A DNA stretch of 8,498 nt from an uncultured Bacteroidota bacterium (GTDB lineage Bacteria > Bacteroidota > Bacteroidia > Chitinophagales > Chitinophagaceae): assembly GCA_903879995.1 (NCBI GenBank), contig CAIRNW010000177.1, positions 1-8,498 on the forward strand, written 5' to 3'. The notes under the pieces were generated by a model that did no database searches, was not told the origin of the DNA, and saw only the letters and a list, made by a program, of their open reading frames with translations. The position numbers and the translations under genes are program-made. Below, one piece after another: positions 1 through 8,412 of this stretch (within the stretch, counting starts at the first letter, position 1; each line of letters starts with the position of its first letter).

Positions 1-176
1 CGATGGGCCAGGGCGTGCAGGAAGGTCGTCTTGCCCGTCTGCCGGGGGGCATGGATGAGGAAGTACTGCTTGGACCTGATCAGGTGCAAGATATCCTCGT
101 AGCGGTGCCGGAACGGCTCCACCATATAGTGGTCCTGCGGGTTACACAGGCCGGTCGTGTTGAAGAAGCGTGTCAT
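1..176 (-). CDS. P-loop ATPase, N-terminal part only (runs off the left edge)
   Basis: Only the first 58 residues are present; the rest lies beyond base 1. Translated from ATG at 176-174, the protein begins MTRFFNTTGLCNPQDHYMV. At about residues 37-51 it reaches a hydrophobic strand (QYFLIHAP) running straight into a Walker A-type loop, APRQTGKTT, which binds the phosphates of ATP. I recall this opening (FFNTxGxCNPxDHYM, then APRQTGKTT) from large AAA-type ATP-binding proteins of unknown role that are common in Bacteroidota. Some related families carry a C-terminal PD-(D/E)XK nuclease-like domain, but that part is not visible here. The start is supported by the conserved N-terminus and by a TATCTTTG box just upstream. 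The gene follows the peptidase/lectin gene on the same strand with a 235-base gap, so it is probably transcribed separately. Confidence 0.8.
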   Translation of the reverse strand, partial: MTRFFNTTGLCNPQDHYMVEPFRHRYEDILHLIRSKQYFLIHAPRQTGKTTFLHALAH

Positions 177-304: not shown

Positions 305-372
305 CCGCTCGCAGGCTGTGGAAAACACCCGCCCCACTCCGTTCCGCTCGCTGTTTCTCTCCGCCCGCTCGC
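305..372. repeat. Three short direct repeats CCGCTCGC
   Basis: The 8-mer CCGCTCGC occurs three times on the plus strand, at 305-312, 344-351 and 365-372 (start-to-start 39 and 21 bases). The last two copies share a ninth base, T. The cluster lies just beyond the stop codon of the peptidase/lectin gene, in its presumed 3' untranslated region. The G+C-rich surroundings make some repetition likely by chance, and no function is evident. Confidence 0.5.
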
Positions 373-411
373 TCATGCCCCGAAGGAATGGCCCCCTGCT
401 TAGCCGCCCGA

Positions 412-534
412 CTAGGGGACGAACGCGACGCGGAAGCCCTGGACGTTGTCCGGGCTGCCGGGGGGGGCGTCGAAGCGGAGAGCCACCCGGCAGCCGTCGG
501 CGCCCTCGTCCCACGAGCCGCCGCGGTACACGCG
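412..534 (-). other. Candidate DGR variable region at the 3' end of the peptidase/lectin gene
   Basis: Codons 452-491 encode a frame typical of DGR-diversified lectin-fold proteins: RVYRGGSW (452-459), CRVA (466-469), R471, then GFRV (484-487). Relatives usually carry runs of Asn between these anchors. Here those places hold D460, E461, G463, D464?, G465, L470, F472, D473, A474, P475, G477, S478 and V482. Almost every such codon ends in C (GAC, GGC, CTC, TTC, GCC, CCC, AGC, GTC), as expected if AAC codons of a template had been mutated at adenines. This tail is roughly 75% G+C against about 52-57% in the preceding 120 coding bases. No template repeat, reverse transcriptase or Avd gene is in the window, so it could be a remote target, a relic, or an ordinary FGE-like C-terminus. 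Confidence 0.45.
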
Positions 535-1887
535 TTCCGAGCCCGAAGAAGGCCCTTTCGGATTGCTTTGTGCAGTCGAGCCATACCTCCCATGCCAATC
601 CGCGCACCACTCCCACACATTCCCACTCATGTCGTACAAGCCAAGCTCATTTGCTTTCTTCCGACCCACCGGTTGAGTTTGAGCTCCCGAGTTATCGGAG
701 TACCACGCCACCTCATCCAGGCTATTGCTGCCCGCATACTTATACCCCCTGCCCAACGAACCGCCCCGCGCTGCGTACTCCCACTCCGCCTCCGTTGGCA
801 GACGGAAATTTTTATCCGTCTTCCCCGACAGCCACCCGCAATATTTTGTCGCGTCGTTCCAGCTCACGTGGAGTACAGGGTGGTTGCCCTCACTCGCGGG
901 GCGTTGCGAGCCATCCGCTCTGCACCGCCAGTTTACCCCTGCTCTCTTCTTCCATTCAGAACCCGTCCACAGGAAACTCCCTCCATCTGTTTCCGCGTCT
1001 GTCCGGTAGCCTGTCGCCTCCACGAAGGCTTTGAACTCGTTTACTGTCACCTCATACTTCCCGATATAAAAATCCGATACCGTGACCTGGCGCATCGGCT
1101 TCTCATCAACATCACAATCACCGCCCTGCTCCGAAGTACATCCCATCGTAAACGTGCCGCCGCGCACGCGCACCATGTTATATTGCCGCAGGTCGGCATC
1201 GGTTTCCTCTGTGGCTGGTCCAGGCGCGGGTACCACCCTACTCCGCGGAAACTGTATCTCCGCTTGCCGCCAACCTTTCTCGATTGCATCCAGCCGTTTG
1301 GCCCGCGATGGGTGTGACATGCTGCCGTTTACCGATATCTCAGGGCTGTACATCACTTTCTGCGCATCCGCCAGGCTGGCTCCAAGCTTGTACAATATAT
1401 CGCCCGCCGTTACATCCGCCTCCAGTTCCATGCTGTGCAGTGTGGCTTCCGAGTGCGGCGACACGAGATGGTAGTTGATATGATGTCCGATCTCGTGCGC
1501 TAAGATGGCCAGCTTCTCCCAGTTTGTCGTACCCGCCGGAACAGTGGAGGTCGTGAAGTTCAGCGACTTTACACTTCTCAAAAACTCCGGGTTGTACAGG
1601 ATGTAAGGCCTCATCTTATCGTCCACGGTAGCCTGGGCATTGCTCGTGCGGTCACAGGGCATAACCACAAAGCGGTTCTGCGCACCTAATTTTTCCATGA
1701 TCTGCGTCACCAACTGCTCCACGTCAACGTCCGTGTTGAAATTGCCCGATCTGACGCAGATTTCACCCCCAGGATGACTGTTGCCATAAAAATTACTCAA
1801 CTGACCTGACTGTCCCCACAAACCCGTCGGTTTCCACAGCATAAACACCAAAAGTAACGATTTTCCGGCTTTGAACAAGTCTTTCAT
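412..1887 (-). CDS. Secreted M48-like metallopeptidase fused to an FGE/SUMF1-like (C-type lectin fold) domain
   Basis: This 491-residue protein has a signal peptide at about 1-25 (positive start, LLLVFMLW core, small residues before Gln26). An M48-like zinc peptidase domain covers about 45-205. It contains HEIGHH at 131-136 (two zinc-binding His and the catalytic Glu) and ELEAD at 154-158, whose first Glu fits the third zinc ligand of M48 enzymes. A Pro/Glu-rich linker (about 215-232) leads to a formylglycine-generating-enzyme-like domain at about 238-491. Its family marks are GGTFTMG, FRLPTEAEWEYAARGG (361-376) and GNVWEWCADW (422-431). The paired active-site Cys of true FGEs are not both present near the C-terminus: only C466 fits, and the earlier position is E461 or a neighbour. 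A binding role therefore seems likelier than sulfatase activation. The last ~40 residues look like a DGR variable region (separate entry). The start gives a proper signal peptide and sits below a TAnnTTTG box. Function is inferred: a secreted or periplasmic protease with a lectin-like recognition domain. Confidence 0.9.
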   Translation of the reverse strand: MKDLFKAGKSLLLVFMLWKPTGLWGQSGQLSNFYGNSHPGGEICVRSGNFNTDVDVEQLVTQIMEKLGAQNRFVVMPCDRTSNAQATVDDKMRPYILYNPEFLRSVKSLNFTTSTVPAGTTNWEKLAILAHEIGHHINYHLVSPHSEATLHSMELEADVTAGDILYKLGASLADAQKVMYSPEISVNGSMSHPSRAKRLDAIEKGWRQAEIQFPRSRVVPAPGPATEETDADLRQYNMVRVRGGTFTMGCTSEQGGDCDVDEKPMRQVTVSDFYIGKYEVTVNEFKAFVEATGYRTDAETDGGSFLWTGSEWKKRAGVNWRCRADGSQRPASEGNHPVLHVSWNDATKYCGWLSGKTDKNFRLPTEAEWEYAARGGSLGRGYKYAGSNSLDEVAWYSDNSGAQTQPVGRKKANELGLYDMSGNVWEWCADWHGRYGSTAQSNPKGPSSGSERVYRGGSWDEGADGCRVALRFDAPPGSPDNVQGFRVAFVP

Positions 1888-2190: not shown

Positions 2191-2549
2191 GTCATTATCT
2201 TCGAGCAAATTAGAGTAGATTTTGAAAAGGTGTCCTACTGGCGTGGCCAGCATGAGCATATCCGCTGCGACAACGAGCCTGAATTTATGTCCATGCAGCT
2301 ACATCAGTAGGCTGGCGACCAGGCGCAAATCAGATACATATAACCTGGAAAACCAACCAGAACGGGATCTTAGAGCACCTGAACAAAATCCTGCGGATAG
2401 GGTGTACCTATCAGTAATGATTTTCGTCGAAGGAAGCACTCAACGAGGCCTTGGACCAGTGGTCTGTGGCATATAACACTTGGGGGCCACATCAAAGCAT
2501 TGGCTACGAAACCCCGGACAGGTTTGAAATACTCAACCAAAAAACTAAA
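2191..2549 (+). pseudogene. Decayed IS3-family transposase (OrfB) C-terminal half
   Basis: Reading across two frames recovers the end of an IS3-type DDE integrase core. The first frame (from about 2191) gives EQIRVDFEKVSYWRGQ and then HEHIRCDNEPEFMS (2251-2292), which matches the usual IRxDNGPEF block holding the second catalytic Asp. In-frame stops follow at 2308-2310 and 2341-2343, then PGKPT. A single-base deletion near 2355-2358 shifts the frame. The second frame gives NQNGILEHLNKILR (2355-2396), corresponding to QNGFIERFNxxxR with the catalytic Glu at 2373-2375. After two more stops (2415-2420) it continues as EALNEALDQWSVAYN (2433-2477) and GPHQSIGYETPDRF, the typical YNxxRPHxSLGYxTP ending. 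The N-terminal half, OrfA and terminal inverted repeats were not found. It is clearly non-functional and marks an old insertion. Confidence 0.85.
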
Positions 2550-3253: not shown

Positions 3254-4828
3254 TTATTGGGTAAAGAACGGAATCACGGCTGCTTTCCTGGTCACTACAG
3301 TGTCCTCTTCTATTTCCTTACGCTTCAGTTCGAGTAGATGATCACCATGAGGTAAGTCTCGAAGGGGGACACGACACAGCAACCCCTTTTCGCCCATGTT
3401 GGGATGCAGGTAGAAATGGCAGATCAGGCTGTCCGTATAGTCTACGGAATCTATGGATACCTCGTAAATACCCTGAAATGCCTGTAGGATCTTGCGCCCT
3501 TTTGCTCTTTGATAATCCCTTCTTGCCATATCCCGATGCTCTTCAAGGCTGTCTTTCATCGCTTCCCAGCGGGTCTTGTCATACTTATCAGGATTTTTCT
3601 TTTTCTCTTCTGATAAGGCTGACAAAGCCCCATAATAAGGAGCCATGTATTTTATCCGAAGCGAATCATACTCTTGGCCTATCGTAAGAGGCCCTAAAAA
3701 ACCTGTCTTCCAAACTTTGGGCGATTGGGCAATCTTTTTCAGGTACCGTTCGTCGTCTTCAGAGATGCGCAGAAAAAGCCATGCCTGCTCACCCTCAAGC
3801 ATGTACCGATCCAAAGTTGCCCTACGGATCACACCAACCTCAGGTGGAATATTTTTTTGGTTCAGCAGGTACGCCTTCCTCAGATCCTCATAATAAACCC
3901 AGTTCACTACCAGTTCATGATGGAGCGTATTTTCAAATTCGTCGGCGTTTTCGGGATAGCGGACTGGGAAGTAGGCAAGGTCGTTGAATTTTATTTCAGA
4001 TGGTAAACCAATGATGATCAAGGAATAAGGTATAAAAAGCCAGAGCAATCTACGGCTATAGGGATTATCGAGAAAATTGTACAATAAGGGCCGATATAGG
4101 AATGAGAGACTAATAGCACTGAAGAAAAGATAAATGTAAAAGTAAATGGAAGAGATGATCCTATTATCGATCTTCTTGATACCTCCCAGTGAGAGGAAAT
4201 CAAACATGTAAAACGAACCAAATAATAGATAAATTAAAAGTAAAAAAATTAGTAATTTAGAATTAGAAGTAAAATAATCAATTACCAAAACTGGGGGTAG
4301 AAATATAAGGATGAGTGACAGAAAGAGAAAAAAAAGCAGGTAGGTAAACGAAAACAGAATACTCCCGGCCCGTTCCAATTTCTCAATATAGGAATCGAAT
4401 TGGCCCACGTTGCGGGTGAGGTAGTTTTCAAAACGAGTGGAATAGTTTAATCGCCTAAAGTCAATATCGCCACTAACGTACCTCAAGCCAATTGCACCAA
4501 TCCAAAGTCCGCGCACGGTAATATGAATTATGAGATTGATTATAAACACATACCATGCTGTCCAAGCCAAAGTCGAGAGCCCATCGAATAAATAAGTTGA
4601 AGCTTCCTCCGCACGCAAAGCTATGAATGCGTCAAGCTGTTGTATCTGTGGTTTTAGACCAATTACAAGGAAAAGGGCCAAGCTGGAAATGATCAACTCC
4701 AATTGCCAGGATTCCTGCTGGATTTTATCCAGCCATTCCTTGAAATTGTGTGTGGAGGGAACATCTGGGTTATAACTTCCCACCCTGTCCTGCGTCGAAT
4801 TTTGTTCTTGTTTTTTGTGTTCTGACAT
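3254..4828 (-). CDS. Six-helix membrane protein with a large soluble C-terminal domain, function unknown
   Basis: This 524-residue protein is not recognised as a named family. A polar N-terminus of about 30 residues precedes six likely membrane helices at about 42-58, 86-105, 156-182, 191-210, 226-245 and 261-276. A loop with many Arg and Tyr residues (about 115-150, SGDIDFRRLNYSTRFENYL) lies between helices 2 and 3. Residues 280-524 have no membrane segment. They include a highly charged helical part (about 405-450) and then alternating strands at about 463-500 (YEVSIDSVDYTDSLICHFYL, later HLLELKRKEIEEDTVV), suggesting a small beta domain. The gene is followed after 11 bases by the 208-residue membrane protein, pointing to a two-gene unit working in the same membrane process. 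There is no signal peptide, so it is probably in the inner membrane. Its A+T-rich codons match the genes to its right. Confidence 0.85.
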   Translation of the reverse strand: MSEHKKQEQNSTQDRVGSYNPDVPSTHNFKEWLDKIQQESWQLELIISSLALFLVIGLKPQIQQLDAFIALRAEEASTYLFDGLSTLAWTAWYVFIINLIIHITVRGLWIGAIGLRYVSGDIDFRRLNYSTRFENYLTRNVGQFDSYIEKLERAGSILFSFTYLLFFLFLSLILIFLPPVLVIDYFTSNSKLLIFLLLIYLLFGSFYMFDFLSLGGIKKIDNRIISSIYFYIYLFFSAISLSFLYRPLLYNFLDNPYSRRLLWLFIPYSLIIIGLPSEIKFNDLAYFPVRYPENADEFENTLHHELVVNWVYYEDLRKAYLLNQKNIPPEVGVIRRATLDRYMLEGEQAWLFLRISEDDERYLKKIAQSPKVWKTGFLGPLTIGQEYDSLRIKYMAPYYGALSALSEEKKKNPDKYDKTRWEAMKDSLEEHRDMARRDYQRAKGRKILQAFQGIYEVSIDSVDYTDSLICHFYLHPNMGEKGLLCRVPLRDLPHGDHLLELKRKEIEEDTVVTRKAAVIPFFTQ

Positions 4829-4880
4829 AGAAATAGGGATAAAATTTCTTGAATAGTTTTTGCTGAAAAAGTCCCTTCAA

Positions 4881-4925
4881 ACCGCCACGACCCGGGGAGG
4901 GCAGCCCAGTACCCTGCATGCGGGG
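4881..4925. other. G+C-rich island in an A+T-rich intergenic gap
   Basis: The 154-base gap between the T9SS pair and the membrane-protein operon contains about 45 bases that are much richer in G+C than their surroundings. Within it, CCCTGCATGCGGGG is palindromic except for one position, and GGGCTGCCC (minus strand) could form a tiny hairpin. It lies downstream of the PorP-like gene stop (4983), so it may help end transcription, but there is no clear stem plus T run. Confidence 0.35.
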
Positions 4926-4982
4926 AGTGTTCAATTACCGCAGTGAAGATTTCAGGTTATAGTATGCCGGACCAGTTCAAAA

Positions 4983-6989
4983 TTATTCATATTTATAATA
5001 AATTACAATTTTGAACTGTTGGGAAGATTTAAGTTCAACATTAGGACTTATTAATTCAACAGAAGATTTTTCAGGTTTAATATGAATACTTTCCAAAAAG
5101 TTTTTCATAGAATATAATTTTAACAATGCCATCTGTACTAAATTCGTAGGCATACCTGTTTGTAACTTTAGGGTTTTATTTGCCACAATAAAAGAATTAT
5201 TGTTATTTTTTTTGAAAATGTATTTGATTTCAGGCTTAGGTCCAAATTCACCCCCATAAACACCCCTCCTGATTTTTTCCGCAACAGATTCATCTTCCCT
5301 CATTAAAACAACATAACTGATTGAGTCAACTGCTACACCATTTTTTAAAAATCCAGTATTCATTTTCCCAATAAAATCGAGTAAGGACTTGACATCATCC
5401 AACTCAGGATCCTTAGCTACAAGATATTTTTCGAGTGCGTTGGGAAACTGGTACATAACCGAAAAACCGACAGCATTTTTCTCAACCTTGATGCGTTCCA
5501 GATTGCGTGGTCGCTTTGTGAGCTTTGCGAGCTCATTGTTTAAAAAAGAATCCAACTCGTTGATTTTTATAGGCTTGCTACTGATAATTTCGCGTAGCTC
5601 CAGCGGTAACTTTCGCTTTAATACGTCCAATTCGTACTTTTTAGACTTAACCTCCGCAGAAATAAAAGCAATTCTATTTTCCAATTCGTTAATCCGCTTT
5701 TCGATGGTTTCTGCATCAGGGGAATTATTGGGAATTAATTTTTTGAGCTCATATTGGCTACACTTTTCGTTGTACCCCCTAAACCTGGACAATACACTGC
5801 CTAGCTCGGCTGATGTCCAACTTTCAATTAAGGATAACTCATTTTCAATGTCTTTAATCTTGTTCTTTATGGCATCAACCGGCTCGACCGAACGGCCTAA
5901 ATTATTGATTTTGCCGCTTACATTTGATATTGATGCCATTTTTTTAGTTATCGTGTCAGATAAAGTGCTCCAAGTCCTCTCAGTGGCTTCCGCATATTCA
6001 CTAATTTCATTTCGTGCCATTTTACGGCTTGTCCCGGTATCCTTTTCTTTGAAACTATATAAAAACCCTAACTCAAAAGAAGTACCAAAATACGAATTCA
6101 AATCAAAGGATCCGACAACTGTTCCTCGATCAAATGCAGATGCACCAAAGGTGAACTGTAATGGAAGGGAGAATTGCTCAACATCGATGGAGGTAAAGTG
6201 TAACCGCGATCCTAAGCCCAACCAAAAGCGATCATCGAAAAAGCCTCCACGAAATGCAAAATCCAACTGTCCTTTATCGTTAAAACCGAATCTTTTACCC
6301 CACAATAATTTTCGGTAAAGAATAACCGGCTCGAAAGTAGATGTTGCAAACCTCAACTTGAAAGCTGTTCGAAGCAATAAATGCGGTGCAACATCAATAA
6401 AAGCTCCTGCATCATTCCTGTTAGCAGAGTAATAAAGCCGTGGCAGGGAGGCATCTAACTCAAAAACATTTTTGTTCGTACCTTTTACCCTGTAAAATAA
6501 TCCTGGCCCAGCAGTTCCTATCAAAATTGATGAACCCTCATAATTTAGAGGTATGTCATCGAATCGTGTATCTTGGTCAATTTTGATACGTTGTGACAAT
6601 ATACCCGCAATTATTCCTAAACTTAATTGGGTATTTTCAGATTCCACAAGACTGTACCCGAATGATATGTTCCCATCAAAATATCTGGTTAAATGGGCTC
6701 TATCAGACGTAAAACCAAATCCTAATGCTATCCTTTTTGATTCAAGATTAAGTGAATTGGATAAATCAGCATTAAAGTTGAGTGTAACCGGAGCATCCTT
6801 ATCTTTAAGATCCATCCATTGCCGCCTATAATTCAGCAGAAAAAAACCATCCCCATATCTTGAGGGATTAAAGGTCTGTGGAAAATATACATGTTGGTTG
6901 ATACCGGGGAGGCCTTGAGAAAATAAAAAAACCGGCAATGCAGTATTTATCTTTAATAAGATGAGCAACAGGTATTTTGAATATTTCAT
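4983..6989 (-). CDS. PorP/SprF-like T9SS outer-membrane protein with a long C-terminal extension
   Basis: This 668-residue protein has a signal peptide at about 1-25 (MKYSKYLLLILL, ending FSQ before Gly26). The next ~290 residues read as an outer-membrane beta-barrel: alternating aromatic and small residues, with the PorP/SprF-type opening QHVYFPQTFNPSRYG and LLNYRRQW near residues 32-58, and a last strand GTSFELGFLYSF at about 302-313. PorP/SprF proteins are usually about 300-350 residues, so the remaining ~350 are extra. They hold coiled-coil-like helices (about 320-400 and 425-500) and a mixed domain at about 500-668. Its end (NLVQMALLKLYSMKNFLES, then QFKIVIYY) is loosely OmpA-like. PorP-like partners are known to help export and surface-anchor their cognate CHU_C proteins, and one is encoded just upstream. 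The frame is open to 7178 inside that gene. I chose ATG 6989 for its short positive N-terminus; ATG 7007 is also possible. Confidence 0.8.
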   Translation of the reverse strand: MKYSKYLLLILLKINTALPVFLFSQGLPGINQHVYFPQTFNPSRYGDGFFLLNYRRQWMDLKDKDAPVTLNFNADLSNSLNLESKRIALGFGFTSDRAHLTRYFDGNISFGYSLVESENTQLSLGIIAGILSQRIKIDQDTRFDDIPLNYEGSSILIGTAGPGLFYRVKGTNKNVFELDASLPRLYYSANRNDAGAFIDVAPHLLLRTAFKLRFATSTFEPVILYRKLLWGKRFGFNDKGQLDFAFRGGFFDDRFWLGLGSRLHFTSIDVEQFSLPLQFTFGASAFDRGTVVGSFDLNSYFGTSFELGFLYSFKEKDTGTSRKMARNEISEYAEATERTWSTLSDTITKKMASISNVSGKINNLGRSVEPVDAIKNKIKDIENELSLIESWTSAELGSVLSRFRGYNEKCSQYELKKLIPNNSPDAETIEKRINELENRIAFISAEVKSKKYELDVLKRKLPLELREIISSKPIKINELDSFLNNELAKLTKRPRNLERIKVEKNAVGFSVMYQFPNALEKYLVAKDPELDDVKSLLDFIGKMNTGFLKNGVAVDSISYVVLMREDESVAEKIRRGVYGGEFGPKPEIKYIFKKNNNNSFIVANKTLKLQTGMPTNLVQMALLKLYSMKNFLESIHIKPEKSSVELISPNVELKSSQQFKIVIYYKYE

Positions 6990-7026
6990 ACAACAGTTTT
7001 TTTTCATTAAAACTAAGCAGTTTAAT

Positions 7027-8412
7027 TCACCCGCCTTTTCGAAACATAGTAACTGCGCCTTTAATAGGAGGTTCATTATTATTTTTTTTAATAATATAAT
7101 AATAAACACCATCTGGGTGGCCATTAACGTCCCATTGATTTTCTCCACTGATTTCTCCACTGGCTGGGATTTTGCCACTGTAAACGAGTCCGCCGGAACG
7201 GTTGAAAATTAGAATTTCAAAATTTTCTTTATTTAAATCTTTTGATGAAGAAATCTTCCACACATCATTATTGCCATCGCTATCCGGTGTAAATACCTCC
7301 GGCACATAGAGTGCTATGTCGTTTGAAACAACTTTCATTGATATAGGCAAAGTATCACCTCTGCAAATAAGCTGATCCTTCCTTATCCCAGGGACAAGAA
7401 GATATTGGATTACTCCAGTACCCTGTCGCAATAATTTTGGTGTTAGCTCTAGCAACTTCCCATTATTCAAGGAAGTAAAGCCCGTACTTTCTATGTTCTT
7501 CAAGCCGGACTCTGTCCATTCAATAAAGTCAGCAACTTCGGTTCCAATACTGCCATACAGCTTGAATACCAAGCTCTTCGTTATATTCTCTTGCAAAACA
7601 AAGGAATTTACGGCAGGTGGTTCACCCGCTCGAAGAATATTAAGCTTGGCAATTTCTTGACAGTTCTTATATATTGCGGTAACAGATAGTCCCTGGACAG
7701 CATTTCCTTTATAGTCAATACTGTTTCCCGTTTGCCCATTACTCCAGGTATATGTTGTATTACTTTTATCGCTTATAGCTTGTAATTTGACCTGGTCCCC
7801 GTCACAAATAGTGCCAGGTGTAATACTAATTTTAAGGTTTTTATCGTCAATTATATTAATAGATTTCGTAGTCTGGCAGATGCCGTTAGAAATCTCTGCA
7901 GTATAAGTTCCGCTTTGAAGAACACTAATGCTAGTTTTGACGCTGTCGATTTTAATACTACCTCTTTTCCAAATGATTGATGTATAATCAGGGTAGGATT
8001 TGATAATACTTAGATTTAACTTCAATTCATTGATATCACAAGTAAGCTTCGTACCAGTACTAGAAATTTCTGCATTCAATGATGATTTTTTAAAATATTT
8101 TGCAGCAGAAGGGTCACAATTTGGAATCACTATTCGTATATAGCCCTTATCAATTCCGTCTGGTATTTCAAATATAGAATTATCACCAGAAACACGTGTC
8201 TCAGTCCCATTTGTATCGCTATATATCAAAGCCGAGCCAATTGTACCTAAAAGGGGTATATTATCCTTTATAATATCTACAATTTTAATTTTTCCACACA
8301 TTGTTGTATCTATCATAAATGAAATCCCACAATTCTGTGCATAGGTTTCAAAATTTATGAAAAAAATTAGCCCGAATAACACTATGAAATATTTACTCAT
8401 TTCCTTTTCCAT
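7027..8412 (-). CDS. Secreted Ig-like protein with a T9SS type-B (CHU_C) sorting domain
   Basis: This 461-residue protein starts with a signal peptide (hydrophobic FIVLFGLIFFIN, cleavage likely after TYAQ at residue 26). The middle consists of beta-rich, Cys-containing modules: about 27-115, an Ig-like repeat at about 117-190 (ending SGTYTAEISNGIC), and another at about 191-262 (CDGDQVKLQA, then TYTWSNGQTG). Such modules are typical of cell-surface adhesins of Bacteroidota. Residues 368-461 form the gliding-motility-associated C-terminal domain: YVPEVFTPDSDGNNDVW (369-385), FEILIFNRSGGLVYSG (388-403) and the end NGHPDGVYYYIIKK (430-443). This domain directs export through T9SS. The stop is 19-37 bases before the PorP/SprF-like gene, so the two form a likely operon and a substrate-partner pair. 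The start may instead be the fifth codon (ATG 8400), which also gives a good signal peptide. The ligand is unknown. Confidence 0.9.
   Translation of the reverse strand: MEKEMSKYFIVLFGLIFFINFETYAQNCGISFMIDTTMCGKIKIVDIIKDNIPLLGTIGSALIYSDTNGTETRVSGDNSIFEIPDGIDKGYIRIVIPNCDPSAAKYFKKSSLNAEISSTGTKLTCDINELKLNLSIIKSYPDYTSIIWKRGSIKIDSVKTSISVLQSGTYTAEISNGICQTTKSINIIDDKNLKISITPGTICDGDQVKLQAISDKSNTTYTWSNGQTGNSIDYKGNAVQGLSVTAIYKNCQEIAKLNILRAGEPPAVNSFVLQENITKSLVFKLYGSIGTEVADFIEWTESGLKNIESTGFTSLNNGKLLELTPKLLRQGTGVIQYLLVPGIRKDQLICRGDTLPISMKVVSNDIALYVPEVFTPDSDGNNDVWKISSSKDLNKENFEILIFNRSGGLVYSGKIPASGEISGENQWDVNGHPDGVYYYIIKKNNNEPPIKGAVTMFRKGG

Follow-up and report, generated by a model that had tools for sequence, protein, structure and literature searches.

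The C-terminal tail of a predicted M48 peptidase-lectin protein from an uncultured Bacteroidota bacterium is a probable target of a diversity-generating retroelement

Judged from comparison with related sequences, codons 460-483 of an M48 peptidase-lectin gene from an uncultured Bacteroidota bacterium are very probably a variable region of a diversity-generating retroelement (DGR), written by a reverse transcriptase (RT) that was not found in this assembly. The gene lies in the window, the whole 8498-base stretch of DNA that was analysed, which is one contig (G000:C177) of a 2.1-Mb draft genome of 410 contigs, with a completeness rating of 96.7% and a contamination rating of 4.15%. A conservation test among relatives carries the argument most strongly, because the columns that it uses were defined by the templates of other genomes. 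The preliminary description of this DNA had proposed present or past diversification of the gene by a DGR, and this is supported in that relatives' template-adenine columns predict the variable positions; of its view that the DGR is encoded elsewhere, the DGR-type variation at those columns stands, whereas a cassette elsewhere was not located in the draft. The features on which the argument draws, all in the window except the last, are these:

412..1887 (-): M48 peptidase-FGE lectin gene (491-aa ORF; Pfam PF01435 and PF03781)
1807..1884 (-): N-terminal hydrophobic segment, residues 2-27, predicted export signal (sequence; model helix 2-27)
1456..1722 (-): M48 peptidase match, residues 56-144 (Pfam)
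1480..1497 (-): HEIGHH, the HExxH zinc motif, residues 131-136 (alignment of relatives)
424..1179 (-): FGE-sulfatase domain of C-type lectin type, residues 237-488 of 491 (Pfam; structural matches to human FGE and TvpA)
412..534 (-): G+C-rich 3' tail, codons 452-491 and stop (composition)
439..510 (-): inferred variable region core, codons 460-483, containing 13 template-Asn (AAn) columns (template comparison, conservation)
351..411 (-): G+C-rich 3' flank (weak resemblance to a post-VR element, nhmmer E 1.6 at 389-351, not significant)
L002:507-1895 (-): Drt2 antiphage reverse transcriptase, in the same genome (L002 / L066, G000:C236; NCBIfam, PADLOC)

The reading frame and coordinates are as first described, 412-534 (-) encoding codons 452-491 and the stop of a 491-aa ORF, and the anchors named at the outset were confirmed (RGGSW at 455-459, CRVA at 466-469, GFR at 484-486). 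The protein matches PF01435 at 30.8 bits (cut-off 20.3) and PF03781 at 220.9 bits (cut-off 23.3). HExxH is the zinc motif of M48, and both marks of that family, a Pfam match above cut-off and this motif, are present in the window protein; H131, E132 and H135 are unchanged across 12 aligned relatives, and zinc-peptidase activity of the M48 half would be expected from its sequence. Export is predicted from the N-terminal hydrophobic segment together with the modelled helix 2-27. The other half offers a feature of DGR targets, namely an FGE-type CLec domain, seen in Pfam and fold matches, with the candidate region at its C-terminus. Elsewhere in the window, positions 2454-2516 (+), upstream of the gene, contain a weak integrase-core remnant (rve_3, E 2e-4, below the curated cut-off), hinting at transposition in the past, and the start of an ORF at 3-176 (-), cut by the contig end, has a weak AAA_14 match (E 0.085, below cut-off).

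An AlphaFold2 model built from 36 aligned sequences has a mean pLDDT of 78, and of 90-92 over residues 451-490. Human FGE ranks first in a Foldseek search (E 3.5e-25) and the DGR variable protein TvpA 29th (E 3.5e-19). Human SUMF1 (PDB 1y1e, 5ssy) provides the top sequence and fold matches, and its Cys341 aligns with Cys466, whereas its catalytic Cys336 aligns with Glu461 (the catalytic roles of both cysteines are given in the excerpted text of PMC6328139). Identity as a formylglycine-generating enzyme was rejected because of this glutamate, despite the retained Cys466, and the domain is for the same reason predicted to be a binding surface. The likeness to TvpA extends to sequence (phmmer E 1.3e-29 over window-protein residues 358-489) and fold (Foldseek TM-score 0.70 by target length); according to the same excerpt the TvpA variable region lies at the extreme C-terminus, as does the candidate region here, although TvpA is there a single-domain protein, whereas the window protein has an M48 peptidase half in addition, and its cassette was not found in the draft.

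Templates were available from DGRs of the same order. In the order-mate G045 (locus L063) an FGE target (4494-5288), an RT (6102-7094) and a template (7206-7335) stand in one locus, and self-BLAST pairs the template repeat (TR) at 7206-7335 with the variable repeat (VR) at 5157-5283, 16 of 17 substitutions falling at a template A. This target has the same anchors as the window protein and its template shares the 32-codon frame of the window tail, but it lacks a peptidase half and has its RT and template adjoining. When the G045 RT served as query, matches came from 24 of 298 genomes of the order at E up to 1e-15 and, at E up to 0.001, from 2 of 42 in the same genus; beyond L063, 31 loci were fetched, 29 from the order search and two from the genus, with matches in G079, G183, G229 and G253 left out. 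The 32 loci were scanned for repeats 50 bases or longer in which A (or T, on the other strand) accounts for 75% or more of the mismatches, and 27 of the loci have such TR/VR pairs (none in L106, L117, L119, L120 and L129), the adenine bias of which is partly by construction since the scan demanded it. In the 32-codon frame shared with the tail, the template of 25 loci gives an RGGSW-NNN-...-GFR-like reading, all 25 templates being distinct, while L127 and L128 (G019) have pairs of a different type and fall outside this set. A template protein profile recovered six templates, spread over G045, G225 and G233 (E 1.2e-21 to 3.4e-19), which are profile members themselves, and had no matches in G019 or G041. 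A column was defined as AAn when at least 60% of the templates have A at the first and at the second codon position, which gave 13 (460-462, 465, 470, 472-475, 478 and 480-482), with 461 AAn in every template. NNN-type FGE-tail repeats were also seen in L025, L047 and L061 (titles Verrucomicrobia, bacterium Bpl_4 and Candidatus Zipacnadia) and may be additional templates of DGRs.

It is exactly at these columns that relatives cease to resemble the window protein. P0002, at 76% identity overall, agrees with it at 184 of 223 FGE columns upstream of the tail and 14 of 19 other tail columns, as against 1 of 13 AAn columns (P 3.7e-8); the corresponding counts are 163 of 217, 14 of 19 and 1 of 13 for P0003 (P 1.4e-6), and 159 of 221, 12 of 19 and 0 of 13 for P0036 (P 1.8e-7). 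The P values compare AAn columns with FGE-domain columns upstream of the tail, and these three proteins are 72-83% identical to the window protein in the rest of the FGE domain. P0113, P0100, P0060 and P0056 are depleted at the AAn columns too (1-2 of 13, P 0.0003-0.002). Averaged over pairs, identity at the AAn columns and at the remaining tail columns, respectively, is 0.07 and 0.75 among seven M48-FGE tails (alignment A1 has 12 proteins, of which five were left out), 0.12 and 0.72 among 28 known variable regions, 0.71 and 0.74 among the 25 templates, and 0.89 and 0.83 among nine ordinary FGE tails, all of a single subfamily and taken from records with Proteobacteria and Verrucomicrobia in their titles. 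The preliminary description had tied abandonment of its view to two outcomes jointly, the lack of a template and DGR RT and ordinary conservation of codons 460-483 among orthologs: the draft yielded neither template nor DGR RT, but the orthologs are not ordinarily conserved, with AAn identity of 0-2 of 13 in seven relatives (4 of 13 in the in-genome paralog).

The template repeat that the preliminary description proposed to look for in the genome was found neither by blastn nor by template profile in the 410-contig draft, and a DGR RT was likewise not found in it. Searches of the genome by blastn with 412-534 (E up to 10) and with 412-700 returned the tail itself only, with no template and no second copy, and a profile of the 25 templates reached just two gene tails, those on C367 (E 7e-10) and C177 (E 1e-6), and no template. 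The G045 RT query, for all its 24 matches in the order, had none here at E up to 10. The sole RVT_1 match of the genome is the antiphage RT Drt2 (NCBIfam 429 bits, cut-off 390; PADLOC E 4e-137), and this protein was ruled out as a DGR RT on that identification. The window is not classed as a complete DGR locus because no DGR RT was found in the genome; its gene would appear to be a DGR-type target without a cassette, the latter being remote, unassembled or lost. Given that neither the PorP/SprF-type protein of the window (E 1e-20, 41 other same-genus genomes) nor the M48-FGE protein (E 1e-30, 34 same-genus genomes) had a match in the genus, the contig may be accessory or misbinned, and claims that this genome lacks a DGR are weakened by this. 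With 410 contigs and a contig that is possibly another organism's, the absence of a cassette is weak evidence.

A variant of the DGR reading is that the gene is a relic, written by a DGR at an earlier time or in a different host, and now frozen, its cassette having been lost or left behind at transfer. The failure to find either RT or template, the lack of same-genus homologs of the M48-FGE protein and the weak integrase remnant upstream are all in keeping with this, as is P0001, a protein from other contigs listed at 100%, in which the tail is the same as in the window even though residues 305-306 differ, so that P0001 lends no support to variation within a population. Set against it are the weakness of absence in such a draft and the fact that other DGR targets are diversified in trans (in the excerpted text of PMC10907252), and a relic is given slightly less than an even chance. 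In Thiohalocapsa PB-PSB1, as covered by the same excerpt, FGE/CLec targets likewise stand away from the RT and peptidases occur within the same systems; the peptidases of these DGR sensors are, however, mostly separate proteins of trypsin or caspase type, whereas M48 is here fused into the target.

The genome has three FGE-domain genes: that of the window (C177), an M48-FGE paralog (C367) and a longer FGE-domain protein (C119). The C367 paralog is 63% identical over query residues 75-287 and has a different, AT-richer tail. At the AAn columns the in-genome paralog, P0067, agrees with the window at 4 of 13, a depletion that is not significant (P 0.10). The paralog on C367 (L004 1-1180 and L131) lies directly upstream of type VI secretion genes, which encode a ClpV-like ATPase, VipA (E 1e-5), TssC (E 5e-136) and a VgrG-like hub/base-V protein; nearby TssF and VasE matches are below cut-off.

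The composition of the tail changes abruptly, at least on one side. G+C is 76.4% over 412-534 against 55.3% over 535-1887, GC3 goes from 0.56 in codons 401-452 to 0.97 in codons 453-491, and the share of C-ending codons from 0.15 to 0.74 in the same two stretches. A G+C jump exactly at 412-534 had been claimed: its 5' rise near codon 452 holds, but high G+C runs on beyond the end of the gene, 120-base intervals starting at 301-361, past the stop codon, having 68-73%. The claims that NNC codons predominate in the variable stretch and that other residues fill family Asn places were borne out, 18 of the 24 codons from 460 to 483 being C-ending and Asn being gone from 12 of 13 AAn columns (it is retained just at 481); 12 of these 13 codons end in C, GAG at 461 being the exception. 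The caveat attached to these observations, that a G+C-rich tail could itself favour C-ending codons, was apt: conserved tail codons are C-rich as well (13 of 19 pyrimidine-ending), and NNC codons were therefore rejected as stand-alone proof of mutagenesis.

Base by base, the tail departs from the templates more often at adenines than at other bases. Against the 25 templates over 32 codons, mismatch is 0.75 at A versus 0.30 at other bases (Fisher P down to 5e-7 for single templates); against the G045 template alone, mismatches involve 20 of its 28 adenines and 13 of its 68 remaining bases. The mismatch ratio is 2.47 for the window, 1.24-2.87 for known variable regions (each scored without its own template) and 0.85-1.78 for twelve hand-picked ordinary tails. 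Because 9 of 50 unlabelled FGE tails in the fetched loci exceed 2 and three are at least 2.47, the ratio alone is not decisive and was rejected as stand-alone proof; three loci with high-ratio unlabelled tails carry NNN-type repeats and may themselves be DGRs. Two codons, GAG for Glu461 and CCG for Pro479, cannot arise by adenine change alone from the usual template AAC and CGC.

These compositional data are also what ordinary divergence would draw on, that is, an FGE-like active-site loop freed of constraint and a G+C tract giving C-ending codons, with no DGR ever involved. Tail and 3' flank are G+C-rich throughout, no DGR machinery was found in the draft, and the paralog is not significantly depleted at the AAn columns; nonetheless, such divergence is very unlikely in light of an identity of 0-2 of 13 exactly at template-defined columns against 12-14 of 19 at the tail columns interleaved with them, and of the conservation of AAn columns in ordinary FGE tails. 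Least probable of all is that another G+C-rich FGE gene replaced the tract by ordinary gene conversion, mutagenic reverse transcription playing no part. This fits the sharp 5' composition boundary near codon 452, but no donor was seen in the assembly, where both other FGE genes have quite different tails, and conversion by itself leaves the AAn-limited variation among relatives unexplained. A phage or viral origin of the tail was also considered and rejected: blastn of the tail against phages (28 records) reached at best E 0.1 among the 20 matches listed, and viral contigs held neither a relative of the M48-FGE protein nor a match to the 23-base exact 3' anchor.

Under the preferred DGR reading, an RT would have made a copy of a template repeat in which the bases opposite adenines were random, and this copy would have been pasted over the 3' end of the M48-FGE gene by past mutagenic retrohoming. 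That template was probably like those of the order relatives, RGGSW-NNN-x-xN-CRxA-N-R-NNNN-P-xN-R-NNN-x-GFR, its Asn (AAY) codons becoming the present NNC codons. The tail would occupy the FGE active-site region of the predicted binding surface and is predicted to set what the putatively exported zinc peptidase, with its intact HExxH, binds or cuts.

The DGRs of the relatives displayed a regularity in their flanks. In 15 of 25 loci (L063, L100, L102, L103, L105, L107-L111, L113-L116 and L118) the variable repeat is followed by 25-30 bases that, locus by locus, are reverse-complementary to the sequence directly after the cognate template. With one pair with a short flank dropped, a local score of at least 14 was reached by 18 of 32 cognate pairs as against 46 of 976 mismatched pairs, and by 0 of 32 in direct orientation. 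Such flanks could serve as a base-pairing address for retrohoming. A full-text literature search did not find this rule; a self-complementary hairpin after the VR is described in the excerpted text of PMC3240598. In flanks inspected by eye, a GAGGGACGA-like motif recurs within ~100 bases 3' of the VR (L102-L104, L107-L111 and L113-L116), frequently flanked by short inverted repeats, and is possibly the loop of a post-VR hairpin. The 3' flank of the window neither matched the flanks of relatives' templates nor bore a reverse-complement relation to them, and no stable hairpin follows the stop codon (z 2.07, weaker than shuffles); the resemblance of the window flank to a post-VR inverted element is weak and not significant, with nhmmer E 1.6 and template flanks unmatched.

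The peptidase half leads to a second type of lectin. Among P0121-P0149, a search with residues 20-235 gave 28 proteins that carry PF09603 (Fib_succ_major), and in 27 PF01435 is present as well; these fusions are 56-66% identical to the window protein in the M48 part, and a Pfam rerun on three agrees in domain content. Fib_succ_major domains serve as scaffolds of DGR variable proteins. In the alignment of 27 M48-Fib_succ_major proteins, which left out P0134 (it has FGE) and P0146 (its tail is cut short), entropy is low in M48 and highest in the last ~80 residues, where the consensus has Asn-rich runs, and on this alignment the variable, Asn-rich C-terminus would fit a second DGR-type lectin. 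The M48 half is rare: of 395 genomes of the class it occurs in four, namely the window's own and three others at 37-41% identity. No M48 gene was noticed next to a DGR in the genomes covered, and a full-text literature search, with subscription journals mostly outside its scope, found no paper treating DGR together with M48. Tentatively, and with the balance somewhat against it, the M48 module may be shared by two hypermutated lectin scaffolds, FGE and Fib_succ_major, as an exported protease with self-diversifying specificity, possibly antibacterial; a use against other bacteria is suggested because the in-genome paralog adjoins type VI secretion genes. For targets without a template more generally, the approach taken here is to take the template-adenine columns of relatives and see whether conservation collapses exactly there. 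Should the M48-lectin proteins be confirmed, hypermutation would act on the aim of a predicted exported peptidase.
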